From IMG/VR virus record IMGVR_UViG_3300031857_001491, positions 1 to 22,684 of that record: a stretch of 22,684 nucleotides of DNA, one strand, 5' to 3'. Numbering within the stretch: the first letter of the stretch is position 1; each line of letters opens with the position of its first letter. This stretch comes from a virus. The notes beneath the pieces were generated by a model that had not been told where the DNA came from, made no database searches, and saw only the letters and a program-made list of their open reading frames with translations. The position numbers and the translations under genes are program-made. This document shows positions 1 to 19,755 of the stretch, piece after piece.

Positions 1-524
1 TCGGCAATCACGGCTGCACGGTAGGTAGCAACAGCGGCAGGCACATCCACATTACGCTCAACCTTGCGGATAATCATCCAGTCAGTCGATGCTAGGAGTG
101 AACCAGCGGCAGTCTTAACTGCGGCAATCTCGGTAGACTTTAAGCCCTTGGTTACTAGACGCTCGGTAGAATCAACCATAACTGGGTTTGCTGGGTCTGA
201 GTTGTCTAAGACTTTTACAAACATAGGGTTGCCGTCTTGGTCTACTTCTTCACGGTCATCCAGCAGTTTAGCCGTGCCAGCATAGGTCGCTTCTACGGTG
301 CTGTTGGTTTCATTCACACGATAGGTAGGACCAGAGACCCAGTAGTACTTATCGTCAGGGCGGGCGCCATGAATGATTTCCCATACGCCAGCTTGTAGCT
401 TCTCGGCAGGGGTTGAAGAACGCAGGAAAGAGCCAGAATAGGTCTTAGTTCCTACGGTGAACATTACGTCTAAGGGGACAATCTGTACTACTTGTCCGTT
501 TTGTACTACTGCAAAGTTACTCAT
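1..524 (-). CDS. Virion/fibre-associated protein, partial at C-terminus
   Basis: An open frame starts at an ATG at 524 and runs to the left edge of the window without a stop, giving at least 174 residues, so the C-terminus is missing. A Shine-Dalgarno sequence (AGGAGC) lies a few bases upstream of the ATG. The protein opens with MSNFAVVQNGQVVQIV, which resembles the opening of the small protein at 4753-5091 (MSHFAKVENGIVTQVI). Its distal visible part is alpha-helical, with LLASTDWMIIRK followed by VDVPAAVATYRAAV, a pattern I recall from small proteins downstream of phage fibre genes. It follows the adhesin gene at 549-3071 by 24 bases and is probably in the same transcript. Function is unknown; a fibre-associated or fibre-assembly protein is an inference. 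Confidence 0.75.
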   Translation of the reverse strand, partial: MSNFAVVQNGQVVQIVPLDVMFTVGTKTYSGSFLRSSTPAEKLQAGVWEIIHGARPDDKYYWVSGPTYRVNETNSTVEATYAGTAKLLDDREEVDQDGNPMFVKVLDNSDPANPVMVDSTERLVTKGLKSTEIAAVKTAAGSLLASTDWMIIRKVERNVDVPAAVATYRAAVIA

Positions 525-548: not shown

Positions 549-3071
549 TTAACGGGCGAGGGAAAATTTAAAAGGAAATTCCGCAAAAGCCATGTATATG
601 TAAGTGAAACTTGATGAATTTGCAATATTGTTGGCGTTTCTTTGCTTAAAACCGTTAGATACAATATCTAATGAACCAGCAGCAGATGATGCTTCTGCAC
701 CGCTAGTATTAGGTTGTAATGCAGAATCAACCACATTATATGTATTGCGTTTAGTATCAAATATTACCCAACCATCTGTGCCTGTTGCTTTTTTGTAAAG
801 AATAAATGCTGGTCTAAACCCTGTGTAAATAAAAGTTCCATCAGCAGAATCATTACCAACATACGAGCCAATTTTGCTATAACCAGCAACCTCGGCAAAA
901 CAGTAGGCTACATAAGTAATTCCGCTTCCATTAACGTTATTTTGTGTTATGCCACCTTGTGCGGTAGTAAATGTTGAACTTGAAACGGGATATATTCCAC
1001 CATTATCATAGGTAGTAATTGTCTGTGATGAACCTGTGGTGTTTAAAAAAACCATATTACCAGCGGTTAAACCTGAATGGTAAACCGCCCAATCGTTAGC
1101 ACTAGTTCTAGATTTAACAATTACCATACCTGGGGTAACACCAAGTCCATGACCAACAGTAGAACCATTAGTGCCATTACCTGTATAGGTCACAATACTA
1201 AATCCAGAAGCAGTGCTAGCGCTTACTGTAGATGTAATAGTTCCTGCTGTGTTGGTTGAACCTGCTCCGTTGGCTTTCCAGTTCCAGCCAACAAAAGTTG
1301 CGGCATTTAGATTAATGTTGTTTGTATTTACTGTTGCACCCAGAGTAAATCCGTTGGAATCAAAAGAAATTAGGTTTTGAAAATTAAAGTAAGTTCCTTC
1401 TGCCACTGTGTCGTTGCTATAAAGTCCTTTTGTTGAACCAGCACCACGAACAGCATCATAAAGTCCATTAAATAACGCATCTGACCTACCTTTTAACCAT
1501 ACAAAATCGGGCTGAAATCCAACGCCTGTAATTGCATTTGTTGTGCCATTACCTGTATAAAGAACAGGATTAAAGTAATCATTAGCCTGTGTAGATGCAG
1601 TAGCACCAATAGTAGGAGTAGGTAAGTTAGTCGTGTTTAGGGTCTTAAATCCAGATGGCGGGGTGTACGAGAAGGGACGTTGACCGAAGTTAATGTCGCC
1701 AACTAAAACACCACCAACGTTTCTGTCAGTAATTTGAGCAAAATAAGTGCCACTTGGCAAGCTTGTGTATGCCACACCTTGACTTGTATTATTTTTATAA
1801 AACGTCAAAGTTCCGTTATCTAAATCTAAGGCTACACCCATTACATCGCCAGTTGTGTATGTAGCCCCATATGAAACTACTCCAGCAAGACTGTCTTTGT
1901 TGCCCGTGTCAGCTTGATATAAATAATAATCCCCAAGCACGGTAGTTCCAGGATACAAAGAAATACCAATTGACGCTATGCCACCGTTGGAACTTGCAAC
2001 CCATTCCCAATACCATTTACCAGATGAAACCCCAATTGTTCCTGCGGTAACATTTGTTGTAGATGTACTTGTTGATAGCGTTAAGTTTCCGTTAGTCAGC
2101 GTTCCGTTGTTTTGCAAAGGATTAAACGTACAGTAATTCCCCCGCCACAACGCTCCTACATCGCCCGCTGTGTTGTAAGGTATCCACTGGGTTGGGACAT
2201 CGTTCATTGAGTCGTAAGTCGTACCGCTGGTCAATGAGATATTGTTGGTAGTCCAGTTGTTGGAGTTACCTGAGAAGTCGTTACCTAGCGTGGAGGTCGA
2301 GGCGGTGTTGGAGAACGGCAAATAAAATCCATTCGTTCCGTATGTGCCTGTGTAAGCTATGGGTTGCCATACGCCTGTCTGGTCGTTAGTAGAGCCGAAG
2401 GATGATGGGGTTAGGGCTTGACCATCAATGTAGTTTAATTCGGTTATATAACCGTCAAAAAAATAAGTTGAACCTTGCTGTGCATTTATAAAATAGCCAG
2501 TATTACCAGACGCATTCCACAATAATGCTTGGTTTTGATTTGGATAGTTTGCTGTTCCAAATGCAGTTACTTGAACTCCATTGACATAGAATTTAATTCT
2601 ATTTGACGCAGTAGATTGAGTTGTATCTACCGCTAAAACGAAATGATACCAAGCTGATGGGTCACGGAATACTTGAGTGGTTGATAACTGACCAGTATAA
2701 GAAGAGCCATCGTAATAAACATAAATGTCTAGCGTATCGTTTGAATTAAAACGCATCTGACCGTTATAGGTTCCCGTAAAGAATGTATAACCAATCGTTT
2801 GGTATGCACCTAAAGTTCCACGTTTACACCAAATAGATTGCGTAAACTTTTGAGTATTCCCGCTTGAAGTAAATGTACGGTTCATATATGCAGAAGCACT
2901 AGACCTAAACCGCAAGGACTTACTAATCGGATCGGGGACGCCAGCGATGGGCCAAGTATTCTCCTTAACCGCCTGAGTGACGGACGCCATATCCCAAATA
3001 CCTTGTGCAGATGTCTGGCTTGGTGTCTGAGGAGTCTTGCGGATAATTCCGCCTGGATATCGTTTACTCAT
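549..3071 (-). CDS. LamG-like + SPRY-like + DUF7483-like adhesin (tail fibre/receptor-binding candidate)
   Basis: This 840-residue protein is the longest in the window and is built from carbohydrate-binding-type beta modules. Residues about 50-250 look like a LamG/concanavalin-A jelly roll, with RDPSAWYHFVLAVDTTQ and FYVNGVQVTAFGTANYP as hallmark strands and DGYITELNYIDGQALTPSSFG closing it. A linker (SGNSNNWTTNNIS) leads to a SPRY-like domain at about 345-470 (SGKWYWEW, then GDVMGVALDLDNGTLTFYKN). Residues about 495-840 match my memory of the DUF7483 type, with GLGVTPGMVIVKSR, YVAYCFAEVAGYSKIGSY and the terminal AFAEFPFKFSLAR. No signal peptide or membrane segment is present, as expected for a virion protein. 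Its ATG overlaps the upstream stop by one base (TAATG). It probably binds a cell-surface glycan; the receptor is unknown. Its N-terminal part is homologous to 5088-6689 and its remainder to 3071-4756. Confidence 0.85.
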   Translation of the reverse strand: MSKRYPGGIIRKTPQTPSQTSAQGIWDMASVTQAVKENTWPIAGVPDPISKSLRFRSSASAYMNRTFTSSGNTQKFTQSIWCKRGTLGAYQTIGYTFFTGTYNGQMRFNSNDTLDIYVYYDGSSYTGQLSTTQVFRDPSAWYHFVLAVDTTQSTASNRIKFYVNGVQVTAFGTANYPNQNQALLWNASGNTGYFINAQQGSTYFFDGYITELNYIDGQALTPSSFGSTNDQTGVWQPIAYTGTYGTNGFYLPFSNTASTSTLGNDFSGNSNNWTTNNISLTSGTTYDSMNDVPTQWIPYNTAGDVGALWRGNYCTFNPLQNNGTLTNGNLTLSTSTSTTNVTAGTIGVSSGKWYWEWVASSNGGIASIGISLYPGTTVLGDYYLYQADTGNKDSLAGVVSYGATYTTGDVMGVALDLDNGTLTFYKNNTSQGVAYTSLPSGTYFAQITDRNVGGVLVGDINFGQRPFSYTPPSGFKTLNTTNLPTPTIGATASTQANDYFNPVLYTGNGTTNAITGVGFQPDFVWLKGRSDALFNGLYDAVRGAGSTKGLYSNDTVAEGTYFNFQNLISFDSNGFTLGATVNTNNINLNAATFVGWNWKANGAGSTNTAGTITSTVSASTASGFSIVTYTGNGTNGSTVGHGLGVTPGMVIVKSRTSANDWAVYHSGLTAGNMVFLNTTGSSQTITTYDNGGIYPVSSSTFTTAQGGITQNNVNGSGITYVAYCFAEVAGYSKIGSYVGNDSADGTFIYTGFRPAFILYKKATGTDGWVIFDTKRNTYNVVDSALQPNTSGAEASSAAGSLDIVSNGFKQRNANNIANSSSFTYIYMAFAEFPFKFSLAR
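2239..2258. repeat. 20-base direct repeat, copy 1 (LamG-SPRY linker)
   Basis: Identical to 4689-4708 in the same orientation. It encodes NWTTNNI in the linker ahead of the SPRY-like domain, exactly where the shorter paralogue at 3071-4756 begins. Confidence 0.8.
2890..2909. repeat. 20-base direct repeat, copy 1 (LamG region of 549-3071)
   Basis: This 20-base stretch is identical to 6511-6530 and in the same orientation; with one mismatch the match extends to 26 bases. It encodes the RSSASAY part at the start of the LamG-like domain. It marks recent common descent or recombination between the two adhesin genes. Confidence 0.8.
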
Positions 3072-4756
3072 TATCTTGCCCTAGAGATCTTGAAGGGATT
3101 TTCTGCAAATGCCATGTATATATAAGTTTCTCCACTTCCAAAAGCACCATTTCTCATTTTAAATCCGTTTGAAAGAATATCCGTTAAATCGGCAGTTCCT
3201 TCTGCGTCAGAAGCATTTGCTAATAAATACGGCCCAACCACATTTCCAGTTGCACGGGCTGTATCAACCATACCCCATGCGTTTACACCATCTGAGCGTT
3301 TCCACATAATAAATCTAGGTCGAAAACCTGTGTAAATAAAAGCATTATCAGAAGAACCGTTACCAGTAAAAGAACCAAAAGCAGAGTAACCAGCGACTTG
3401 TGCAAAGCAGTAGGCTACATAAGTTCCGCCAGAACCATTGATTTGTGGATCCAAACCATATGTTGATGAAGCGTTTGTTAAATTTAAATAAACTGCACCA
3501 GTAAAGCCAGTCAACCCTATTGTTGTGCTTGTTTGCACTGCTTGAGAAATAGACCTATGCCAAGTAAGCCAGTTTGAAGAAGCCGTACTTGCGTTTCTTC
3601 CTTTAAAAATTACCATTGAAGGAGTAACTCCCAAGCCATGACCAACAGTTTCACCGCTTGTTCCATTACCACTATAAGTAACAATACTAAATCCAGCGGT
3701 TGTGTTTGCGGAGACGGTTGAGGTTATTGTGCCTTGGGTGTTGGATACTCCTACGCCATTTGCTTTCCAGTTCCATGCAACATAGGTTCCGCCTGTAATG
3801 TTATCTGCCGCATCACCGCCCGTTCCTAATGTAAAACTTGTATTGCCAAAAACTTGAACATAATAGCTACCATTAGCAACTTCAGCGTTAGTTAAATTAC
3901 TGTATAAAGTTGCGCCAGCACCACGAAGCACATCAAACAAAATATTATTGGTTGAGCTATTTCTGCGTTTAATCCAAACAAAATCAGAGCCACCGCCTGT
4001 TGTAATTACTCGATTGCTGGTACTGTTTCCGTCATAAATTGTTGCCCCCATATATTCAATACCAGCCAATATCGTAGGCGTTGGGAGGTTATATGTGTTT
4101 AGTGGCAAAAAGCCTGTTGGGGGTGTGTAGGAGAATGGTTGTTGACCGAAGTTAATATTATTTGTTACAGTGCCAGCAGAAGCATTAATGCTAACTGATG
4201 GAAAATATGTGCCTGCTAAAATAGAAGAAAAAGCAGTTCCTTGACTTGTATTGTTTTTATAAAAAGTTAAAGTTCTATTGTCTGCGTCAAAAGCTACGCC
4301 AATAATATCTCCGTTGCCGTATGTTGCACCATAAGCTGCACCTGAACCATTATTGTATTTTTGACCATCATTTGCATTGTAAGCATAGCCAGTAGCATTA
4401 TTACCAATATAAGTTGTTAAAGATGCGCTTTGTGTTTCAATGCCTACCATTGCACTATTGTTAGAGCTTGTTTGATATTCCCAATAGAATTTTCCTGAAG
4501 TTATTCCAACAGTTGCTCTTGTTGTGTTCCATGATGCTGTTGAGCTAGATGCTTGTAAATTTCCATTAGACATTGCCAATACAGATGTGTCCAAAGGATT
4601 CAATACACAATAATTAGCCGTATTTGAGTTCGTGTTGGTCGGCACATCAGTCATCACGTCATAGGTTGAACCTGGTGATGCGTAATTAATATTGTTGGTA
4701 GTCCAGTTATTGCCGTTGCCAGAGCCGTCTAAACCTGGGTTAATGATGGTAGTCAT
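3071..4756 (-). CDS. SPRY-like + DUF7483-like virion protein (paralogue lacking the LamG part)
   Basis: This 561-residue protein begins directly at the linker that joins LamG and SPRY in the neighbouring 840-residue protein (SGNGNNWTTNNI at residues 12-23). It then carries a SPRY-like domain at about 85-210 (SGKFYWEYQ, GDIIGVAFDADNRTLTFYKN, NINFGQQPFSYTPPTGF). Residues about 235-561 form the DUF7483-like region (GLGVTPSMVIFKGR, YVAYCFAQVAGYSAFGSF, YIYMAFAENPFKISRAR). It aligns with roughly residues 260-840 of the downstream protein but has no LamG domain. The ATG overlaps the stop of 4753-5091 in an ATGA, and the stop overlaps the next start in TAATG, so translation of the fibre genes is probably coupled. 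A role as a tail-fibre or receptor-binding component is inferred from domain type and neighbours. Confidence 0.85.
   Translation of the reverse strand: MTTIINPGLDGSGNGNNWTTNNINYASPGSTYDVMTDVPTNTNSNTANYCVLNPLDTSVLAMSNGNLQASSSTASWNTTRATVGITSGKFYWEYQTSSNNSAMVGIETQSASLTTYIGNNATGYAYNANDGQKYNNGSGAAYGATYGNGDIIGVAFDADNRTLTFYKNNTSQGTAFSSILAGTYFPSVSINASAGTVTNNINFGQQPFSYTPPTGFLPLNTYNLPTPTILAGIEYMGATIYDGNSTSNRVITTGGGSDFVWIKRRNSSTNNILFDVLRGAGATLYSNLTNAEVANGSYYVQVFGNTSFTLGTGGDAADNITGGTYVAWNWKANGVGVSNTQGTITSTVSANTTAGFSIVTYSGNGTSGETVGHGLGVTPSMVIFKGRNASTASSNWLTWHRSISQAVQTSTTIGLTGFTGAVYLNLTNASSTYGLDPQINGSGGTYVAYCFAQVAGYSAFGSFTGNGSSDNAFIYTGFRPRFIMWKRSDGVNAWGMVDTARATGNVVGPYLLANASDAEGTADLTDILSNGFKMRNGAFGSGETYIYMAFAENPFKISRAR
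4689..4708. repeat. 20-base direct repeat, copy 2 (start of 3071-4756)
   Basis: Identical to 2239-2258. It lies about 15 codons after the ATG of the SPRY/DUF7483-like paralogue, close to the point where homology with the fused adhesin begins. Confidence 0.8.
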
Positions 4757-5091
4757 TCAACTATCTCCCAAGCAACTGTTTCTTCGTTCCATTTATATGT
4801 TTTGCCATCTGTAGGGTATGCTACAGGAGCGCTCCATAAACAAGTATCTTCGCTTAAAGTCCAAGATGCAAATGGTTTTGGTGGGATAAAAGCATCTTTT
4901 TGGCTGTCATAAGTAAAGCCAACACCAGCGTAGTTTTTGCGTAATGGTCTGCCTTCAGGATGTTGACCGCCATGTGTGTTATAGCTAGTCTGAACCCACC
5001 CTGTTCCAAATAGACCAGAATCAATAACGTCCTGCTCGGCAACAATAACCTGAGTGACGATTCCGTTTTCTACTTTTGCAAAATGACTCAT
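4753..5091 (-). CDS. Small conserved phage virion-associated protein
   Basis: This 112-residue protein starts MSHFAKVENGIVTQVIVAEQ and contains SYNTHGGQHPEG, LRKNYAGVGFTYD, a PPKPFASWTL segment and a Trp-rich end (YPTDGKTYKWNEETVAWEIV). I recognise this pattern from a widespread family in cyanophages and other marine or freshwater phages, often found near fibre genes; its biochemical role is not established. It sits between the LamG/polyglycine gene and the SPRY gene, with ATGA overlaps on both sides (5088-5091 and 4753-4756). That placement suggests co-translation with the adhesins and perhaps a structural or assembly role. The first 16 or so residues resemble those of the protein at 1-524. 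Confidence 0.85.
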   Translation of the reverse strand: MSHFAKVENGIVTQVIVAEQDVIDSGLFGTGWVQTSYNTHGGQHPEGRPLRKNYAGVGFTYDSQKDAFIPPKPFASWTLSEDTCLWSAPVAYPTDGKTYKWNEETVAWEIVE

Positions 5092-6689
5092 GCTGTATAA
5101 GTCCCTGATGATGTGTAAGTAAGAATGGTGTTGCTACCAGATGTAGTTACTGTTGGGCTACCTGTGGTTGTTCCTGTGTAATTAGCAGTTGGGATAGATA
5201 GGATAACAACACCAGAGCCACCGTTGCCAGAAGTAACATTTGTAGCACCCTGACCTGAGCCGCCACCGCCACCTCCACCACCGCCAAGGTTTGTTGTTCC
5301 GTTAGCAGCATTATTACTACCAGTACCAGGTGAATCACCTCCGCCTGCTCCACCGCCTCCTGAGCCTCCAGCACCTCCTGGATATCCTACATTTGCACCG
5401 CCACCGCCACCGCCAGCATATGTTACAGAAGAACCAGATATAGAAGATGCTGTACCTGCACCACCAGCACCAGCAATTGATGTACTTCCTGTTCCTCCAA
5501 CTGCTGATGCTCCACCTCCACCGCCTCCACCCCATGCAGATGTAGTTGAAGCTGCTGCTCCAGCACCGCCATTATTACCTTGGCTTGGGGATGTTGATGG
5601 GGTATTGCCAGTACCGCCTGTTCCATTATTTGTTATACCACTACCGCCACCGCCTGAACCACCACTTCTACCATTAGATACATTAGCAGCACCTCCGCCA
5701 CCGCCACCAGCAGAAGTAATTGTGCTGAATATAGAACTAGAACCATCTCCACCAGCTTGATAAGAACCGCTACCACCAGTACCGCCAGCACCTACAGTAA
5801 TTGTGTAAGAAACAGTTTGACCTAAAGATATTGTGCCTGTTCTATAACCACCAGCACCGCCACCACCAGCATAAGCAAGACCACCTGCACCACCACCACC
5901 AACAACTAAATAATCAACGTTATATGTTGAAGCTGGTATATTCATCGGCAAATAGAACCCATTCGTACCATACGCACCTGTGTATGGGATAGGTTGCCAG
6001 ATACCATAAGCATCGGTTGTACCAAAGGAGGATGGGGTTAGCTGAACTCCGTCAACAAAATACATTTCTGCTAAATAGCCATTGTAATAAAGGTCATTAT
6101 ATGTTCCAGCTCGACCAATTCCTGTTGCAGATGTTGTATTTAATGCAGTATCAAAATTTTGACTTGGATATATAGCGGTTGAAAAAGAAGTTACTTGAAT
6201 ACCGTTAACATAAAGTTTTACACGATTAGTGTCTGTGGCTTGAGTTGTATCAACTGCCATAACAAGATGATACCAAGCGGAAGGGTCTCTATAAACAGAT
6301 GTTGTTATTAAATTAATTTGAAGTCCAGCAACATAATTTGCAATCCTTAATTTATTATCGTTATAAAACTCAAATTCAAAAGAATTATCAAGTGATGTAT
6401 CCCCAGTTCCAAATATTATCCTTCTTGTATCTAATCCACCAATTTTTGCCCAGGCTGAAAAAGTAAAAGTTCTACGATTTCCAGCACTTGCTGGAGTGCG
6501 ACTTAAATAAGCAGAAGCACTAGACCTAAATCGCAATGAGTTAGTTAACGGATTATTAACTGCTTGGGGCCAAACTCCCTGTCCTTGATACTGTAGCTGT
6601 TGACTGGACGTGTAAATACCGCCAGCCGATTGTGGCGTGACAGTAGGGGCAGTTGGCGAGAGTATTGCGCCTTTGTAGCGATCAGACAT
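5088..6689 (-). CDS. LamG-like adhesin with a polyglycine-rich C-terminal domain
   Basis: This 533-residue protein has two parts. Residues about 50-250 are a LamG/concanavalin-A-like jelly roll (SLRFRSSASAYLSR, RDPSAWYHLVMAVDTTQ, KLYVNGIQVTSFSTAIYPSQ, DGVQLTPSSFG) clearly homologous to the start of the 840-residue protein at 549-3071. From about residue 259 (VDYLVVGGGGAGG) to about 500 it becomes extremely rich in glycine, with many runs of four to nine glycines separated by short Ser/Thr/Asn/Ala segments. It ends in a short beta-type tail (NTILTYTSSGTYTA). Glycine-rich regions of this kind occur in phage tail-tip adhesins, and the gp38 adhesin of phage S16 packs them as polyglycine-II helices; that fold here is an inference. 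The start is ATG with a weak AGAGG upstream. Confidence 0.85.
   Translation of the reverse strand: MSDRYKGAILSPTAPTVTPQSAGGIYTSSQQLQYQGQGVWPQAVNNPLTNSLRFRSSASAYLSRTPASAGNRRTFTFSAWAKIGGLDTRRIIFGTGDTSLDNSFEFEFYNDNKLRIANYVAGLQINLITTSVYRDPSAWYHLVMAVDTTQATDTNRVKLYVNGIQVTSFSTAIYPSQNFDTALNTTSATGIGRAGTYNDLYYNGYLAEMYFVDGVQLTPSSFGTTDAYGIWQPIPYTGAYGTNGFYLPMNIPASTYNVDYLVVGGGGAGGLAYAGGGGAGGYRTGTISLGQTVSYTITVGAGGTGGSGSYQAGGDGSSSIFSTITSAGGGGGGAANVSNGRSGGSGGGGSGITNNGTGGTGNTPSTSPSQGNNGGAGAAASTTSAWGGGGGGGASAVGGTGSTSIAGAGGAGTASSISGSSVTYAGGGGGGANVGYPGGAGGSGGGGAGGGDSPGTGSNNAANGTTNLGGGGGGGGGSGQGATNVTSGNGGSGVVILSIPTANYTGTTTGSPTVTTSGSNTILTYTSSGTYTA
5190..5915 (-). repeat. Glycine-rich low-complexity coding region
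   Basis: This stretch encodes residues about 259-500 of the LamG-like adhesin. On the plus strand it reads as repeated CCACCG/CCACCT/CCAGCA codon complements, giving the glycine runs. Because of this composition, long spurious open frames appear in the other minus-strand frames. Such repetitive DNA is prone to slippage and recombination, which could change the spacing of the glycine runs. Confidence 0.8.
6511..6530. repeat. 20-base direct repeat, copy 2 (LamG region of 5088-6689)
   Basis: Identical to 2890-2909, same orientation, at the equivalent place in the LamG-like domain of the glycine-rich adhesin. Confidence 0.8.
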
Positions 6690-6698
6690 CTAAGCCTC

Positions 6699-7076
6699 TT
6701 AGCTGCTAATGTTTTCGTAGGAAAGAACGGCTTCTAAATAGTTAGCTGTTCCCGCTGTAATCACTACGGATTGGTTCTCCATTAAATAAAACGAGGTTGA
6801 CTTGTCGGTAACAATCAGGGACGCACCCGCTGGTACGGAGATCTGATACGCTAGATCATAAGGTGTACCACCACCAGCAGCGGCTGAGTTAACCGATACC
6901 GTGACGTTAGCAGCGGTTGTGCCGTTGACATTAGATACCACGATGTTGTTTACCTTATAGACCAAATTGCTAGAAGCAGCGTTTGATAACAAAACGGTTG
7001 CTGAAGTATTGGATAAGGCAACATACGTGGTGTTACCGTAAATTGCTGTTACATTGACTATATTAGGATTTGCCAT
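6699..7076 (-). CDS. Small beta-rich virion protein
   Basis: A 125-residue protein rich in Ala, Val, Thr, Ser and Asn with alternating hydrophobic strands (TTYVALSNTSATVLLSN, YQISVPAGASLIV, NQSVVITAGTANYLEAVLSY). No charged catalytic motifs, membrane segments or signal peptide are visible. The composition is typical of small phage tail or head-surface proteins. It lies between two tail-fibre-type genes, with a GGAGC ribosome-binding site just before its ATG. The exact role is unknown; a minor tail or fibre-base protein is the simplest reading. Confidence 0.8.
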   Translation of the reverse strand: MANPNIVNVTAIYGNTTYVALSNTSATVLLSNAASSNLVYKVNNIVVSNVNGTTAANVTVSVNSAAAGGGTPYDLAYQISVPAGASLIVTDKSTSFYLMENQSVVITAGTANYLEAVLSYENISS

Positions 7077-7088
7077 TTGATTGCTCCA

Positions 7089-7805
7089 TTAGTATCCGAA
7101 AATCATCGCCATAGCGATTGCTTTGCCTGTTGAAATGCCACTTGATGGGGTGGTGAAAGAGAGTGTTCCAGAACCATTAGTCTGAAGAACTTGACCGCTG
7201 GTTCCATCTGCTGCGGGTAACGTAAAAGTGACGTTAGAGGCAATAGTATCTGCTGCTTTTAGCGATACGTAATTTGTACCATTATCTGTGTCTTCGTAGA
7301 GCTTAAGGTTAGCTCCAGCGGCTGATGTTCCAGCTACGTCTAACTGAGTAATACCAGCAATCGTACCGCCAGTAATAGTTGCGGATGGGGTTGCCAATGA
7401 TGTTAGATAAGTGACTGCATCTACTACGTTAGAGCCTGTATTAAACACAAACATTGTCTTACCAGCAGGAACGGCTGTACCTGTACCTGTGGAGTTCTTA
7501 ACGGTGATAGCGTCTGCACATCCGTTGTTTACTAGGTAGAGTTTCTCGATGGCTGGAACAATTAAGTTCTGCGCACCGCCAGAAGTACCTGTTAGGTTAA
7601 GTCGTAGATTACGGGCTGTTTGAGTGGCGTTGGTGTCTGTTAGGGTTAGAGTAACGGTTCCACTGGCAAAGGTTACATCGGCAGAACCAGTAATGGCTTC
7701 TTCTAACGCAGTCCCTAAGTTGGTGTTAGTTGTTGTACCCCAAGTACCAGACTGATCGCCTGTGCCGATAAGCTCGATTTTTAGTGGTGAATAAGTCGAT
7801 GCCAT
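7089..7805 (-). CDS. Tail-fibre-like structural protein
   Basis: A 238-residue protein starting MASTYSPLKIELIGTGDQSGTWG, a start common in phage tail proteins where the GDQSGTWG segment recurs. Residues about 150-222 carry a distal-fibre module with KLYEDTDNGTNYVSLKAAD, VTFTLPAADGTSGQVLQTNG and TLSF, which I know from fibre proteins of cyanophages and other environmental phages. It ends in KAIAMAMIFGY. There are no membrane or enzymatic motifs. An AAAGGA sequence precedes the ATG. It probably forms part of the tail fibre or its attachment, with assignment based on remembered family patterns rather than a search. Confidence 0.82.
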   Translation of the reverse strand: MASTYSPLKIELIGTGDQSGTWGTTTNTNLGTALEEAITGSADVTFASGTVTLTLTDTNATQTARNLRLNLTGTSGGAQNLIVPAIEKLYLVNNGCADAITVKNSTGTGTAVPAGKTMFVFNTGSNVVDAVTYLTSLATPSATITGGTIAGITQLDVAGTSAAGANLKLYEDTDNGTNYVSLKAADTIASNVTFTLPAADGTSGQVLQTNGSGTLSFTTPSSGISTGKAIAMAMIFGY

Positions 7806-7815
7806 AATTTATCCT

Positions 7816-8844
7816 TTATGCCGCTATTTCAACCCAATTGGGCGATTGTGTGTCAATAATATCATTCCAAGTGCCTGTTTGCGAGTCATTTATATCTATC
7901 CAGTTTGGTGTTTGTCCGTCATCAATTACCTGCCAAATTAGTACACTTCCTACTTCTCCGACTGCCTGAACTCCCGTAACGCTTACTACCGCACCTATGA
8001 CTACTGCAATACTTCCAACACTGCCTGTTGCCTGTAACCCTGTGACGTCAATATTCTGTCCAGTAATTACGTTTACTTGAGCCGTAGTTGCAGTTGCCTC
8101 TACGCCCGTTAAATCTACAGAACTACCACCCGTAACCGCTACATCGCCTACAGCGGTAGTACTAGAAACCCCAGTTACGCCAACATCCGTACCTTCTTGT
8201 ACGGTTACACTGCCAACGCTTCCTGTAGCTTGGAGTCCCGTAACTGGAGCATTTGCTGCCGCTTCTACAGAAACTGAACCCTGTACTACGGTTCCTACAA
8301 CACCTGTTACGTTTACTACCGCAGTCCCAGTAACCGTTACGCTACCAACACTGCCTGTTCCTGCCACCCCAACTACATCTACACCCGTGGTCGTGGTTAC
8401 TGTTACCGTACCTAAAAATACTGTTCCTGCTACGCCTGTTAGTGCTACGGTTGCCGTACCTGTTATGGATACTGATCCTACCTGCCCCGTACCATTTACA
8501 CTAGTTACTCCAACATCCGATCCAGCATCGACAGCTACACCTTCTATCTGTCCTGTACCGCTTACCCCAATTACATCGACAACTGCCGATCCTATAATTG
8601 TTGCACTGCCTAACTGCCCTGTACCAGAAACTCCTGTTACATTTACTATCGCATCTTGGGTGGTCTGTACAGTAACTGAGCCTACTTGCCCTGCTGCTAC
8701 TACACCACCGCTATTCTCACTCCAAGGGTTTTCACCCCATCCACCATAGCCCCAACCTCCAAGAGGGACTTCTACATCAGTGTAGTCCTCGCCCCATGGT
8801 CCAGCACTCCAAGCACCACTGCCCCAGCCAGAATAGGTTGCCAC
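7816..8844 (-). CDS. 22-residue repeat protein with Trp/Gly-rich N-terminus and Trp-repeat tail
   Basis: This 342-residue protein has three parts. Residues 1-45 are Trp/Gly-rich (YSGWGSGAWSAGPWGE, GGWGYGGWGENPWSE). Residues 53-296 are eleven repeats, one of 24 and ten of exactly 22 residues, with a partial twelfth; the consensus is roughly VGSVTVxxGxxVxVTGVxGTG. Residues 305-342 hold three shorter repeats around W (DDGQTPNWIDI, NDSQTGTWNDI, DTQSPNWVEI). Alternating Val and regular Gly turns suggest a beta solenoid or stacked hairpins. I recall similar uncharacterised repeat proteins in marine phages. The start codon is GTG with no clear Shine-Dalgarno, and no internal Met exists; the upstream gene stops 7 bases before, so reinitiation is likely. 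A fibrous virion protein is inferred. Confidence 0.85.
   Translation of the reverse strand: MATYSGWGSGAWSAGPWGEDYTDVEVPLGGWGYGGWGENPWSENSGGVVAAGQVGSVTVQTTQDAIVNVTGVSGTGQLGSATIIGSAVVDVIGVSGTGQIEGVAVDAGSDVGVTSVNGTGQVGSVSITGTATVALTGVAGTVFLGTVTVTTTTGVDVVGVAGTGSVGSVTVTGTAVVNVTGVVGTVVQGSVSVEAAANAPVTGLQATGSVGSVTVQEGTDVGVTGVSSTTAVGDVAVTGGSSVDLTGVEATATTAQVNVITGQNIDVTGLQATGSVGSIAVVIGAVVSVTGVQAVGEVGSVLIWQVIDDGQTPNWIDINDSQTGTWNDIIDTQSPNWVEIAA
7957..8688 (-). repeat. Tandem 66-base coding repeats (22-residue units)
   Basis: Codes for residues 53-296 of the repeat protein, read as one 72-base unit followed by ten 66-base units in exact register. The units keep VGS at positions 2-4 and [VLI]TG[VL] near positions 15-18, while their DNA has diverged considerably, so the repeat is old or maintained at protein level. 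Confidence 0.85.
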
Positions 8845-8851
8845 TGATAAA

Positions 8852-9289
8852 TCACGCTATGCGGATAATGGCGTTACTTGCGTCTGCTGTTGGGAAGACG
8901 ATGGTAAACGTACCGCTAGTAGAGGTCTTAGCACCACCAAAGTCCAAAATACATACAGAAGGATTACCTGCTGCGGTATCGTTATAAATCATGGCGCCAT
9001 ATGCAGTAATGGTCGCAGAGGTAAACGATAAATCAGCAAAGTCGGTAAAGGCTGTAGTACCCGAAGAAGTTGGGGTTACATTGGTTAATGTACCGCCACC
9101 AGCCGAATAAGTACCAGAGTTAGCCACTTCGTTGGTATTTGTATAAGCAGTGGTAGCAGCCGTGAAGGATGCGCTATTGTCATACATAGCTAATTTGAAG
9201 GTATTTCCAGTACCAGTCGTAAAGTTATGAACCGCTTGCATAAGCTCCACTTTGAAGCTGGTACACATAAAGTTGCCTGTGAACGCCAT
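8852..9289 (-). CDS. Conserved small phage structural protein
   Basis: A 145-residue beta-rich protein beginning MAFTGNFMCTSFKVELMQA and containing HNFTTGTGNTFKLAMYDN, a glycine-rich middle, then APTSSGTTAFTDFADLSF-like and AYGAMIYND segments and a terminal FPTADASNAIIRIA. This pattern is a very common unnamed family in environmental phage genomes, usually next to fibre or adaptor genes. I see no catalytic motif or membrane segment. A clear AGGAG precedes the ATG. It is probably a minor virion protein, but its role is not known. Confidence 0.85.
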   Translation of the reverse strand: MAFTGNFMCTSFKVELMQAVHNFTTGTGNTFKLAMYDNSASFTAATTAYTNTNEVANSGTYSAGGGTLTNVTPTSSGTTAFTDFADLSFTSATITAYGAMIYNDTAAGNPSVCILDFGGAKTSTSGTFTIVFPTADASNAIIRIA

Positions 9290-9298
9290 TTTTGACTC

Positions 9299-9586
9299 CT
9301 ATTCGTCTAAAAGTTTAATTAATTCAGGATGACCAGCTTCCCGTAGCTTGTGAGCTAGTGTTACACGATCAAATTTTACCGCTTCATTCATATAAAAAAC
9401 CAGAACTTCCCGAATATGATTCCTAAAAGCAATGGCTTGCTCCCGAACCAAAGGATGGGACTGATCCCCTACCTGAATAATCTTATCTAATGCCCGTTCA
9501 GCGACTTCCTCTGGGGTAAAGCCACCGTGGTCTTTTGTAAATACTTGGATACCGCTAGACTCGCCTAGCCCTTGTACGCTAATCAT
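9299..9586 (-). CDS. Conserved hypothetical helical phage protein
   Basis: A 95-residue, mainly helical protein. Recognisable pieces are GGFTPEEVAERALDKII, SHPLVREQAIAFRNHI and a C-terminal helix VTLAHKLREAGHPELIKLLDE. I recall close relatives in environmental phages beside adaptor genes, with no assigned function. It begins inside an ATGA overlap with the upstream adaptor-like gene (9583-9586), suggesting coupled translation and a role in the same part of the virion or its assembly. No membrane segments, cysteines or metal sites are seen. Confidence 0.8.
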   Translation of the reverse strand: MISVQGLGESSGIQVFTKDHGGFTPEEVAERALDKIIQVGDQSHPLVREQAIAFRNHIREVLVFYMNEAVKFDRVTLAHKLREAGHPELIKLLDE

Positions 9587-10242
9587 CTTACTGGATACCT
9601 CACTTGTCCACTTCTATAGGCGTCTTGACGATCCTTAGCATCGCCCAACTGTTTCAGATCTGCCATGGCTGCGTCATAACGACCTTTGTACATCGTCATA
9701 GTGTCAGCGTCTGTTTTCATAAAGTTTGCTGCTTCTAAAAGCGCACCATACAACAACACAGAATCAAAATTATCCCCAAGCCAGGTAGTCCCTGCGGTAA
9801 CAATGGACTGTGGGTAATAGAAATAGTGAAGTTCTACAGCGTAGTTAGAGTTTGGAGTAGGCCCCAAAATAAAGCTATTGTTATCAAAAATAGCGTAATA
9901 CTCAGGCTCTCCATAGAACGCAGCGTCCGTATCTGGGTAGGATTCACGGATAAAGTTAACATCTTTGTTAAGAAGATAGTGGTACTCATTTGCCGCATTA
10001 ATCACCGCAAGGCTAAAGGTAGCCAGCCAATCAACAGGAGTCGCTAGGTACTTATTTCCGCTTGTTACATTTCCCGTAACATTCTTACGGAAAGCTGGCA
10101 TTTGCACCGTGTTATAGATGCGTTGCTCGGCAAGCTGGACAAACCTAGCAATCTGCTCGGCAGACGTAAAAGAGCCTACTGTCGCTGGGAAGTCGTTCTC
10201 AGCAAAACCTTTAATAGCAGAAGTTAACTGCGTATAGTTCAT
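9583..10242 (-). CDS. Head-tail adaptor/nozzle-like protein
   Basis: A 219-residue protein opening MNYTQLTSAIKGFAENDFP, followed by FVQLAEQRIYNTVQMPAFRKN, which is characteristic of the phage adaptor proteins often annotated near DUF6682 and SU10-type tail-adaptor families. The middle is beta-rich (KYLATPVDWLATFSLAV, YYAIFDNNSFILGPTP, YAVELHYFYYPQSI) and the C-terminal third is helical (LLYGALLEAANFMKTDADTMTMYKGRYDAAMADLKQLGD). It likely forms a ring below the portal or connects portal and tail. The start ATG lies in an ATGA overlap with the gene at 10239-10508. It could alternatively be a minor tail protein, but the arrangement after the other adaptor favours a connector. Confidence 0.8.
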   Translation of the reverse strand: MNYTQLTSAIKGFAENDFPATVGSFTSAEQIARFVQLAEQRIYNTVQMPAFRKNVTGNVTSGNKYLATPVDWLATFSLAVINAANEYHYLLNKDVNFIRESYPDTDAAFYGEPEYYAIFDNNSFILGPTPNSNYAVELHYFYYPQSIVTAGTTWLGDNFDSVLLYGALLEAANFMKTDADTMTMYKGRYDAAMADLKQLGDAKDRQDAYRSGQVRYPVR

Positions 10243-10508
10243 CCCATCTTCCCGCTAGACATTCTGCCTTTGGTTGCGGCACCAGCACCACGCATCTCAA
10301 TCTTGCCGTACTTGTTAACGCCCTTACCGTCAGTCTTATTAATACCGTCAACGGAGATATTCATGGTAGCCATATCTTGAGCGCCAGTCATGCCTTTAGA
10401 ACTTAGTCCTTTGGCAGAGATTGTTTTGCCCTTCATTGTATGGGGAGGAGCATAGACTTTAGCGTCTCCTACTTCCTTACCCATTACTTTTTTAGAATAT
10501 TTAGCCAT
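10239..10508 (-). CDS. Small basic protein with a GAATKG C-terminal motif
   Basis: An 89-residue Lys/Gly/Met-rich protein of unknown function. It begins MAKYSKKVMGKEVGDAKVYAPPHTMKGK and ends in IEMRGAGAATKGRMSSGKMG. I recall RG.GAATKG endings in many small basic phage proteins of unknown role. The protein has no membrane segment, no cysteine and low complexity, so it is probably partly disordered. It starts on a TAATG overlap with the stop of 10508-10720 and overlaps the adaptor-like gene by ATGA. A packaged or DNA-contacting head protein is possible but is only an inference from charge and context. Confidence 0.75.
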   Translation of the reverse strand: MAKYSKKVMGKEVGDAKVYAPPHTMKGKTISAKGLSSKGMTGAQDMATMNISVDGINKTDGKGVNKYGKIEMRGAGAATKGRMSSGKMG

Positions 10509-12066: not shown

Positions 12067-12317
12067 TTTTTAGCGGCTCTCATATTGTCTACAAGATTAG
12101 GATATGGTCTACCAGCAGCTTTTGCCATGGCTTTTGCGCTGGCTTTTTTAGCAGTAGATAGTTTTTTGGGTTTACCTAAACCTTTTGGTCTTGGCTTATC
12201 CCAGACTTCCCCGCCTTTTTTATATTCGGTAAAGTCAGTATCATCCCTACGAGCTTTACGCTTAGGTTTGCCCATTTTAGTAGGCATAATAGCGCCCATT
12301 CCACGACTTGGTCTCAT
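12063..12317 (-). CDS. Small basic phage protein
   Basis: An 84-residue Lys/Arg/Ala-rich protein starting MRPSRGMGAIMPTKMGKPKRK and ending LVDNMRAAKK, with an alanine/lysine helix (STAKKASAKAMAKAAG). A TTG nine codons upstream (12344) would extend it, but the ATG at 12317 sits in an ATGA overlap with the preceding stop and has AAGGA seven bases away, so I use the ATG. It contains EYKKGGEV, similar to the YKKGGKV lead-in of the neighbouring tagged proteins, but no RADGCA tag follows. Unknown function; probably a basic virion or DNA-contacting protein. Confidence 0.75.
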   Translation of the reverse strand: MRPSRGMGAIMPTKMGKPKRKARRDDTDFTEYKKGGEVWDKPRPKGLGKPKKLSTAKKASAKAMAKAAGRPYPNLVDNMRAAKK

Positions 12318-12682
12318 ATCTTTGTCCTTCCCCGAATAGCGCAACCATCTGCTCTGGATGACGCTGATTTAACTTTGCCACCAGCTTTGTAATTCTTAGT
12401 AATGTCACGGTTTGACTTGGGCATTACACCGCCACCGCCTGTAGTCAACCTTCCCATGTCCTGCAATCTTTCAGCATAAGTGCGTGGGCTTTCAGCTTTA
12501 GCTTTTGCCCTTTGCTCTTCTGCCATTCTATGCGCTTCAGCCTTAGCCCTTTCGTTCTCCTGCTTTACTTTTTCAGCAGCTTTATCGTATTCGCTAGGTC
12601 CAAACTTTTCCTTGGGAGGAGTGTATTTATCACTCTTACCATCACCAACTTTTTTAGAAGGGTCAATAGGCTCTATTGGCAT
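12314..12682 (-). CDS. Coiled-coil protein with C-terminal RADGCA tag (third of three)
   Basis: A 122-residue protein of unknown function. The first 30 residues are Lys/Pro-rich (MPIEPIDPSKKVGDG). Residues 30-77 form a charged helix likely to be a coiled coil (YDKAAEKVKQENERAKAEAHR onward). After a GGGG hinge the C-terminus reads YKAGGKVKSAS, then RADGCAIRGRTKI. The tag matches those of the two preceding genes, although the N-terminal part is unrelated to theirs. Its ATG overlaps the preceding stop by one base (TAATG) and its stop overlaps the next ATG (ATGA). The tag GKT is changed to GRT here. Virion passenger or assembly protein is an inference. Confidence 0.78.
   Translation of the reverse strand: MPIEPIDPSKKVGDGKSDKYTPPKEKFGPSEYDKAAEKVKQENERAKAEAHRMAEEQRAKAKAESPRTYAERLQDMGRLTTGGGGVMPKSNRDITKNYKAGGKVKSASSRADGCAIRGRTKI
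12317..12391 (-). other. RADGCA C-terminal tag, copy 3
   Basis: Codes for residues 98-122 of the coiled-coil protein: lead-in YKAGGKVKSAS, then RADGCAIRGRTKI to the stop. Codons differ from the other copies at many synonymous positions. Confidence 0.75.
12325..12329 (-). promoter_or_regulatory. Ribosome-binding site deciding the 12317 start
   Basis: AAGGA on the minus strand, within GGGGAAGGA, is seven bases before the ATG at 12317. It lies inside the last codons of the upstream tagged gene, supporting ATG rather than the TTG at 12344. Confidence 0.6.
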
Positions 12683-13050
12683 TACGCTCTAGTCTTTCCA
12701 CGGATAGCACAGCCGTCTGCACGAGCTGAGGCAGACTTAACTTTTCCACCCTTTTTATATGATTTGTATCCTTCTAATCCGCCTGTTTCTCTTGCACTAG
12801 AAACATAATTTCTTGCTTGCTCTGCTTTTTGTTGTTTAGCCGCCATAGCAGCCTCTTGTGCTGCAGCTTGTGCGTTTTTTTCGTCTTCTTGAGCTTTATT
12901 AGCAATTGATTGCTGCTTGCTATCATAAGCATCTTTAGCAATCATTTGAGGCAAAAACCCACCAACACCTTGACGGATAAGATTGCCCGTCATGCCTTCA
13001 CCAGTTACCATTCCAACAACAGGACTAATATCTCCGAGTTTGAATCCCAT
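12682..13050 (-). CDS. Gly-rich/helical protein with C-terminal RADGCA tag (second of three)
   Basis: A 122-residue protein. Residues 1-40 are hydrophobic and glycine-rich (MGFKLGDISPVVGMVTGEGM, then GGFLPQMIAKD), reminiscent of an amphipathic membrane-active segment but not a clear transmembrane helix. Residues 45-83 are an Ala/Gln/Lys-rich helix (AQAAAQEAAMAAKQQKAEQA), probably coiled coil. The tail is YKKGGKVKSAS followed by RADGCAIRGKTRA. The start is ATG two bases after the stop of the preceding tagged gene. Function unknown; a packaged or ejected internal virion protein is one possibility, inferred from the Gly-rich amphipathic start and the position after the head genes. Confidence 0.78.
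   Translation of the reverse strand: MGFKLGDISPVVGMVTGEGMTGNLIRQGVGGFLPQMIAKDAYDSKQQSIANKAQEDEKNAQAAAQEAAMAAKQQKAEQARNYVSSARETGGLEGYKSYKKGGKVKSASARADGCAIRGKTRA
12685..12756 (-). other. RADGCA C-terminal tag, copy 2
   Basis: Codes for residues 99-122, YKKGGKVKSAS lead-in region then RADGCAIRGKTRA to the stop, nearly identical in protein to copies 1 and 3 but with different codons. Confidence 0.78.
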
Positions 13051-13052
13051 AG

Positions 13053-13361
13053 TTACACCATCTTTCCTCTAGTTTTGCCTTTAATAGCGCATCCATCAGC
13101 TCGCTTAGAAGCGCTGGAAACTTTTCCACCTTTAGCTTTTTTAACTGGTTCTGGCTTTTTCTTTTCTGGACCAAAGATCTTATCCCGTAACTTAACCATA
13201 GGATTAGCTTCGTTCTCCTCACGGGCGAGGCGATCAACCATCTCTTGTGGCAGCTCGTCTTTAACAACAGTTCCTTTATTAAAGCCTGGAACGCCACGTC
13301 CTTTAAGAACGTCAGCACGAGTTACTTTGCCGTCATCGTTAAGGTCTGGGAAATTAGCCAT
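13053..13361 (-). CDS. EF-hand-loop protein with C-terminal RADGCA tag (first of three)
   Basis: A 102-residue protein starting MANFPDLNDDGKVTRADVL. Residues 6-17 (DLNDDGKVTRAD) fit a canonical EF-hand/dockerin calcium loop: D1, N3, D5, G6, V8 and D12. A helical, charged middle (PQEMVDRLAREENEANP) and a Lys/Pro stretch lead to AKGGKVSSAS then RADGCAIKGKTRGKMV at the end. I chose the ATG at 13361, two bases after the upstream stop; a TTG at 13370 has a better-placed AAGGCGG and would add three residues, so the start is uncertain. Only one EF-hand loop is present, whereas EF-hands usually work in pairs. Function unknown; calcium binding is predicted. Confidence 0.78.
   Translation of the reverse strand: MANFPDLNDDGKVTRADVLKGRGVPGFNKGTVVKDELPQEMVDRLAREENEANPMVKLRDKIFGPEKKKPEPVKKAKGGKVSSASKRADGCAIKGKTRGKMV
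13056..13130 (-). other. RADGCA C-terminal tag, copy 1
   Basis: Codes for residues 78-102 of the EF-hand protein: KGGKVSSAS lead-in, then RADGCAIKGKTRGKMV to the stop. The GKMV extension is shared with the C-terminal motif of 13364-13918. Confidence 0.78.
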
Positions 13362-13363
13362 GA

Positions 13364-13918
13364 TTAGCAATACCCGCCTTTGTTCATCTTGACCATCTTG
13401 CCTTTGGTTTTGCCTTTGATCTCAATGCCACCGCCTTTAGCCATGCTATGCATACGCTTCTCATGTCCTTTAACAGCCTTGGCAGCAACTTTCTTCATCA
13501 TTGGTTTGTCTTTAGAAACGTCTGAATGGGCCATACCGCCTTTTTTCATACCAGCCTCAGCCATCTCATGTTTAATCATGGACTTAGGAGCGCCCTTTTT
13601 CTTCATAAAATCAACTTCTTTCTTAACCATCATCTTAGATTCTTTCATTTCTTTTCCTTTCAAAATTCCACCGTCTTTTTTACCAGCATACTTTTCTAAA
13701 CTAAAATTTGGTAATTGCATCATCCCATGATTAGACCGTGGTTTGTTGAATTTACCTTTAGATGGATTAGTAGATCCACCAGTTCTAAACTTTTTACCTT
13801 TATCAGCTTCCATAAAATCTTCTCCAACAGATTTAGGAATGCCAACCTTTTTAGCAAACTTTGGGTTATTAGCCACAGCTGCCATTAGGTTGTGCTGTTT
13901 TTTGCTGACGCTAGGCAT
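13364..13918 (-). CDS. Basic modular phage protein with C-terminal IKGKTKGKMV motif
   Basis: A 184-residue, strongly Lys/Met/Gly-rich protein. Residues 1-45 (MPSVSKKQHNLMAAVANNP, FAKKVGIPKSVGEDFMEADK) are a pattern I recall from many environmental phages without known function. Residues 93-160 are a second module (KMMVKKEVDFMKKKGAPKSM, IKHEMAEAGM, HEKRMHSMAKGG). Residues 161-176 (KGGGIEIKGKTKGKMV) align with the end of the EF-hand protein (IKGKTRGKMV), followed by KMNKGGYC. Its ATG lies 8 bases inside the preceding gene. The charge suggests a DNA- or capsid-interacting protein, which is inference. Confidence 0.8.
   Translation of the reverse strand: MPSVSKKQHNLMAAVANNPKFAKKVGIPKSVGEDFMEADKGKKFRTGGSTNPSKGKFNKPRSNHGMMQLPNFSLEKYAGKKDGGILKGKEMKESKMMVKKEVDFMKKKGAPKSMIKHEMAEAGMKKGGMAHSDVSKDKPMMKKVAAKAVKGHEKRMHSMAKGGGIEIKGKTKGKMVKMNKGGYC
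13391..13438 (-). other. Tag-like C-terminal motif GGGIEIKGKTKGKMV
   Basis: Codes for residues 161-176 of the 184-residue protein. It shares IKGKT[KR]GKMV with tag copy 1 but has GGGIE in place of RADGCA, so it appears to be a variant of the tag. Confidence 0.6.
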
Positions 13919-19571: not shown

Positions 19572-19755
19572 TAGATTTCTCCATTCGTTGTTTGAGGTCT
19601 GTTATTGCTAAACATGCGGACTCAAGACCCCGTATTTGTCCACAAGCGTACTTATATTCCTCGTAATTGGCACAATTTCCCGCAGAAATAGCGTTTTGGA
19701 GCATATTTATACGGTCACGGTACTCATTTAAGAGGTAATCCAAGTTTTTATCCAC
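19564..19755 (-). CDS. Small helical protein between portal and co-chaperonin
   Basis: A 63-residue, mainly helical protein (MDKNLDYLLNEYRDRINML, YEEYKYACGQIRGLESACLA, DLKQRMEKSND). Three cysteines occur. It starts at GTG 19755, with AGGAAAAA upstream, in a TAGTG overlap with the portal stop, and ends overlapping the co-chaperonin start by 8 bases. Small helical proteins at this position are usual in phages with this gene order but have no defined function. The tight coupling suggests a role in prohead or portal assembly. Confidence 0.75.
   Translation of the reverse strand: MDKNLDYLLNEYRDRINMLQNAISAGNCANYEEYKYACGQIRGLESACLAITDLKQRMEKSND

Follow-up and report, generated by a model that had tools for sequence, protein, structure and literature searches.

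A LamG-SPRY-DUF7483 adhesin gene of a phage tandem pair, probably split by a glycine-rich tip and a candidate chaperone gene

Receptor-binding proteins decide which bacteria a phage infects, and the shuffling of whole domains among them is already known; their domain mosaicism has been well described (Nat Commun 2023, PMC10684548). Glycine-rich tips accompanied by chaperones are also known: in the myocyanophage Pam3 (gp24-gp25, PDB 7YPX), gp25 serves as chaperone to a fibre that ends in a Gly-rich tip; the N-terminal part of gp25 binds both this Gly-rich domain and the TNF-like domain, and gp25 has been proposed to leave before maturity (PMC9608196). The Gly-rich tip adhesins of the gp38 type found in T-even-like phages, e.g., S16, are relatives of Pam3 gp24 (PMC9608196). 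A different arrangement is found in the Pelagibacter phage HTVC011P (gp36/gp37) and its kin, in which a LamG-SPRY gene is followed by a DUF7483 gene.

The locus described here can be compared with each of these systems. As in Pam3, a protein of the window has a Gly-rich terminal domain and the next gene encodes a small protein, whose predicted N-terminal β-sandwich bears a modest resemblance to the fibre-binding domain of gp25. On the other hand, Pam3 gp24 has a helical N-terminus and a TNF-like domain where the window protein has LamG; gp25 consists of 162 aa and includes a helical trimerisation domain, which the 112-aa protein of the window does not have; and the adhesin is split in the window but not in Pam3. 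The S16-type gp38 resembles the window in that the Gly-rich receptor tip behaves as an exchangeable unit, but gp38 sits on gp37 as a tip protein in its own right, whereas the Gly-rich domain of the window is the C-terminus of a LamG protein. HTVC011P has the same three modules in the same order in two adjoining genes; however, it is cut at the SPRY/DUF7483 joint, with neither an inserted domain nor a helper, while the window is cut at the LamG/SPRY joint and has an inserted domain and a probable helper gene. As for domain mosaicism, the word 'fission' is absent from the main text of PMC10684548, and the window would add to it exchanged DNA that carries a gene boundary; a limited literature search returned no description of an exchange in which the incoming DNA brings a gene boundary along and splits its recipient.

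The window, by which we mean the whole stretch of DNA analysed, corresponds to a complete virus record (22,684 bases), which probably represents a fragment of a genome. Its portal protein (19755-22190) is 41-47% identical to the portals of the pelagiphages HTVC023P and HTVC027P, Phage DSL-LC04 and Planktothrix phage Pag-Yong1, and this identity places the phage in the same podovirus-like group. Four open reading frames on the minus strand, at 5088-6689, 4753-5091, 3071-4756 and 549-3071, constitute the adhesin locus. A first-pass annotation of this DNA had proposed that the same modules occur fused in one gene and split elsewhere, and we confirmed this layout: 549-3071 encodes LamG-SPRY-DUF7483, 5088-6689 LamG plus a Gly-rich domain, and 3071-4756 SPRY-DUF7483, with the 112-residue gene (4753-5091) between the split parts. 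The genes overlap at 5088-5091 and at 4753-4756, in both cases through a stop/start ATGA.

The unsplit adhesin, hereafter copy 2 (549-3071, minus strand, 840 aa), is composed of an anchor-like N-terminal region (residues 1-48), LamG (49-262), SPRY (324-490) and DUF7483 (496-840). Pfam recognised SPRY (E 1e-9, 39 bits against a cut-off of 26.3) and DUF7483 (PF24299, E 1.7e-119, 399 bits against 27), and no match to Laminin_G_3 (PF13385) in the LamG part up to E 0.1. Despite this missing match, the LamG of copy 2 is, judging from the alignment, homologous to that of 5088-6689 (48% identity of residues 1-259 over 263 aa, E 6.5e-62). After copy 2 comes the start of a further gene (1-524, minus strand; MSNFAVVQNG...), which runs off the contig and encodes 203 aa in the related contig L004. 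It has a weak match to PHROG 4912, 'tail fiber assembly' (E 2.4e-5), and is a probable fibre-assembly helper of copy 2.

The front half of the split adhesin (copy 1) lies at 5088-6689 on the minus strand and encodes 533 aa, with an anchor-like N-terminus (1-48), LamG (48-255; PF13385, E 5.9e-15, 56.2 bits against a cut-off of 27.6) and a Gly-rich domain (258-531; Gly_rich_2, PF21722, E 5.6e-22, 79.3 bits against 24.3) that extends up to the stop codon. The Gly-rich domain gave no sequence match in the PDB up to E 0.1; by analogy with Pam3 gp24 and S16 gp38, whose polyglycine-II tips expose hypervariable loops on stacked glycine-rich helices, it may bind the receptor. The back half (3071-4756, minus strand, 561 aa) starts with MTTIINPGLD and is composed of a disordered linker of about 45 aa, SPRY (PF00622, E 7.6e-19, 68 bits against 26.3) and DUF7483 (PF24299, E 1.5e-100, 337 bits against 27). 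Its alignment with the fused gene covers residues 263-840 of the latter (48%, E 1e-147), and it begins in the LamG-SPRY linker, as had been noted in the first-pass annotation. In the predicted model of the 561-aa protein the first ~40 residues are disordered and are followed by a complete SPRY fold (Z 29 to the SPRY domain of Ash2L); thus, the cut spares this fold. When the same model was used in a fold search for DUF7483, SPRY filled the list of matches and no DUF7483 match emerged, and a literature search for DUF7483 returned nothing. A GGGAG stretch lies upstream of the start of the 561-aa gene, which overlaps the preceding gene, and this stretch and the ATGA overlaps suggest that the split genes are translationally coupled.

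Since the 561-aa protein has neither the N-terminal region nor LamG, it has no evident route into the virion, and its first 40 residues are predicted to be disordered; it could be argued that the new Gly-rich tip took over and that SPRY-DUF7483 is a decaying leftover. We consider this unlikely: the gene retains 561 open codons, an overlapping start with GGGAG upstream, the complete SPRY fold and a conserved C-terminus; the back halves are also intact in two other cut genes (L231 and L308), and pelagiphages such as HTVC011P have DUF7483 as a separate gene. We infer, instead, that the virion still incorporates the back half; the cut genes have kept their order and remain closely linked, which suggests that their products assemble together.

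The comparison with related genomes indicates which state came first. About ten related contigs carry an intact tandem pair of LamG-SPRY-DUF7483 genes in the same place (L007/L095/L139, L084, L085/L144, L086, L087, L088, L092, L048, L140-L143 and L145), followed by the same gene that comes after the fused gene of the window. The closest of them, L145, shows 86% DNA identity to the window on the upstream side (6503-10499). The N-terminal DNA of the front half is 87-88% identical to copy 1 of the intact tandem relatives (88% to L145), and the junction between the end of the 561-aa gene and the start of the next gene is 93% identical to the copy 1 junction of L145; since both ends match copy 1 of L145, the LamG-Gly gene represents the beginning of copy 1 and the 561-aa gene its end. 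Moreover, window blocks 5946-6095 and 4593-4736 match L145 5225-5376 and 5421-5561, respectively, and are separated by 1,209 nt in the window vs 44 nt in L145. Thus, the split trio corresponds to the upstream copy, interrupted in the linker between LamG and SPRY, and the proposed gain of a Gly-rich domain and a small gene at the break is supported.

The intact tandem pairs in relatives and the L145 gap also set the direction of the change as fission, so that the synteny check proposed in the first-pass annotation spoke against the reverse event that it had offered as an alternative. The existence of split forms in other genomic backgrounds (L308 and L309) would fit a history in which the split genes are older and the fused LamG-SPRY-DUF7483 gene formed by joining them; however, a profile survey of 137 related loci, some of which are views of one contig, counted 95 complete LamG-SPRY-DUF7483 genes vs 3 split ones, the fused form fills both positions in all intact tandem relatives, and the material between the split halves matches a unit of another phage. 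Fusion is, in our opinion, highly improbable.

The split arrangement is repeated in contig L004, with 100% DNA identity to window 4700-6570, including both edges of the insert, and no mismatches inside the split genes; for this reason, a simple assembly join is unlikely. In the otherwise near-identical L004, ~101 nt of the N-terminal part of the LamG-Gly gene (window 6570-6670) are absent, and its reading frame starts later (482 aa). This gap could reflect either genuine variability of the anchor-like region or an error in the assembly.

The inserted cassette, defined by the gap in the comparison with L145, spans ~1.2 kb (4737-5945, minus strand) and comprises the Gly-rich 3' end of the LamG gene and the 112-aa gene. 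A donor-like unit was found in an unrelated phage, L226, which matches window 4806-5906 with 79.6% DNA identity: this contig has a gene for a 298-aa Gly-rich protein and one for a 119-aa homologue of the 112-aa protein, its surrounding tail genes are unlike those of the window, and it has no LamG gene. The homologues of the 112-aa gene lie directly after a C-terminal Gly-rich domain in 73 of the 109 scorable cases and after a DUF7483-ended gene in 21, although these relatives were drawn partly by similarity to the window gene and the proportion is not a census. In addition, among the sequences fetched, and with the caution that their sampling imposes, the Gly-rich domains of the split genes are nearest to C-terminal rather than internal Gly-rich domains. 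On the basis of the L226 match, the pairing counts and the placement of the Gly-rich domains, the insert appears to comprise a fibre gene's 3' end, stop codon included, and the gene partnered with it. We read it as a cassette of receptor tip and chaperone, whose own stop codon split the gene and left both halves intact. A separate observation concerns the syntenic relative L232 (5393-8516), in which the place of copy 1 is held by a 908-aa gene with three Gly-rich domains; the gene after it is homologous to the 112-aa gene.

The 112-aa gene (4753-5091, minus strand) belongs to PHROG 7759 (function unknown), and is a candidate chaperone of the Gly-rich tip. PDB sequence searches with the protein and its family profile gave nothing credible. 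Its predicted model (pLDDT 90), which contains one short helix at 20-25, had a single credible match in the PDB, chain a of 7YPX, i.e., the N-terminal domain of Pam3 gp25 (Foldseek probability 0.98, E 0.038). Superposition on residues 3-56 of this chain gave a VIA Z of 5.8 (2.3 Å, 52 residues, 23% identity), a modest similarity confined to the N-terminal domain. The model has no C-terminal helices and no counterpart of the C-terminal helical trimerisation domain of gp25, and, because this domain is missing, we did not assign the gene to the gp25/Tfa family. The structural score is weak alone but, taken together with the genomic pairing, it makes it likely that the 112-aa protein acts as a chaperone of the Gly-rich tip, and a widespread gene family without known function gains a functional lead. 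The 112-aa gene and the gene at 1-524, each of which comes after an adhesin gene, share the N-terminus MSxFAxVxNGxVxQ (56% over 16 residues) and are otherwise unlike; their products are perhaps related helpers with different bodies.

The history of the two copies proved more complex than that of the cut. Duplication followed by fission had been suggested from the window; the synteny supports fission of one of two copies, but not duplication as a recent step, the tandem pair being common to many relatives. A recent duplication within this phage lineage, with subsequent fission of one copy, would fit the adjacency of the copies and their 47-48% identity over all shared domains. It is, nevertheless, very unlikely: besides the tandem pair shared by ~10 relatives, the two N-terminal regions are unlike each other, and the two DUF7483 domains of the window were rejected as sisters by an AU test (p-AU 5e-5) on 41 rows chosen in part after a larger DUF7483 tree. 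For DUF7483, the outcome is thus the one that the first-pass annotation had named as a refutation. The LamG of copy 2 is nearest to that of L044 and L062 (84-85% DNA), two phages whose genes are built differently. The block exchanged with these phages corresponds to 2306-2922 on the minus strand (83.9-84.7% DNA identity, in the block only), and its flanks match the tandem relatives, not L044/L062.

A division of all sequences into a copy 1 and a copy 2 clade was also considered and rejected, as sequences labelled copy 1 and copy 2 are intermingled in the trees of LamG, SPRY and DUF7483 alike; for this reason, orthology was assigned by gene ends and synteny. The two copies form an old pair in which domains have been replaced one at a time. 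As the domains were exchanged singly, the trees refute a simple duplication history and not the fission, which is based on synteny and on copy-1-specific gene ends.

Cuts at the same joint were found in other phages. The pattern INPGLDxSGNxNxW, used to search for the restarted gene start, was present in L307 (the contig of L231), L004, L308 and L309. In L231, which has the window's own gene neighbourhood, LamG plus a further domain precedes SPRY-DUF7483, and an intact copy 2 comes last; the C-terminal domain of its cut gene has no Pfam match. In L308 and L309 a LamG-Gly gene is followed by the restarted SPRY gene through a TAATG overlap, with no small gene between them, so that some of these proteins either do without the helper or obtain it from another locus. 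The two contigs have different neighbouring genes, yet they share 95.3% DNA identity over 1,020 bp; this stretch comprises the LamG end, the Gly-rich domain, the stop/start and ~50 codons, while the similarity does not extend into the interiors of LamG and SPRY. A search for the LamG-to-Gly junction retrieved 16 contigs: most of the complete ones continue in frame into SPRY, whereas L004, L308 and L309 are cut.

A single fission, inherited by all the phages with the INPGLD start, was considered and rejected, because the DUF7483 domains behind three cuts do not form a single clade; consequently, either there were several independent cuts or recombination has moved the boundary. The shared start favours, without proving it, a boundary that moved between phages. 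In HTVC011P and many IMG/VR contigs the cut lies, instead, between SPRY and DUF7483. Both joints fall in highly conserved stretches (LamG end/linker, 208-290; SPRY end/linker, 462-490), a conservation compatible with recombination at the linkers, although the DUF7483 domain also holds equally conserved stretches.

Other variations of these genes were observed. Several consecutive DUF7483 copies are present in genes of L073 (4032-8423) and L096 (6037-7968), and in L073 the serial copies lie at the LamG/SPRY joint, where the window has the Gly cassette; in L022 (1893-4862) and L146 (9923-12976) a second LamG-type domain is in frame at that joint. Elsewhere in the window, four consecutive small genes (12314-13918) share a near-C-terminal motif, [A/R]DGCAI[R/K]GKT[R/K] or IEIKGKTKGKMV, and L309 and L234 have comparable motifs at the corresponding position. 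Finally, a 342-aa protein (7816-8844) consists of short repeats of the V-x-G-x-x-G-x-V-G-S-V-T-V type, partly visible as DNA repeats with a spacing of 330 nt, and has no Pfam or PHROG match.

The explanation that we favour, with a probability of about three in four, is that copy 1 of an old tandem pair was split by a tip and chaperone cassette that replaced ~44 nt of linker. The phage would carry an old pair of LamG-SPRY-DUF7483 receptor-binding proteins; recombination, presumably at the conserved linkers, would have replaced ~44 nt of the LamG/SPRY linker of copy 1 with DNA from a fibre gene of another phage, namely the Gly-rich tip at the C-terminus and the stop codon, and with the chaperone gene next to it. 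In place of a single gene, copy 1 would now be expressed as three overlapping ones, encoding a LamG protein that is anchored and bears the new Gly-rich tip, a small chaperone that may help this tip to fold, and a SPRY-DUF7483 protein that would start anew inside the old linker. A broader, more tentative proposal, which we regard as possible but doubtful, is that in aquatic phages a recurrent kind of mobile segment, made of a tip, in some cases also its chaperone, a stop codon and a fresh start codon, enters the conserved LamG/SPRY linker, and that the two resulting proteins assemble in trans, so that tips would be exchangeable without loss of the remaining adhesin.

Since the exchanged piece brings a gene end, a probable helper gene and a new start, a single recombination event would be able to rewire the gene structure of an adhesin. 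Moreover, the cuts at either conserved linker in different phages, with the gene order kept, suggest that a covalent link between the modules is dispensable.
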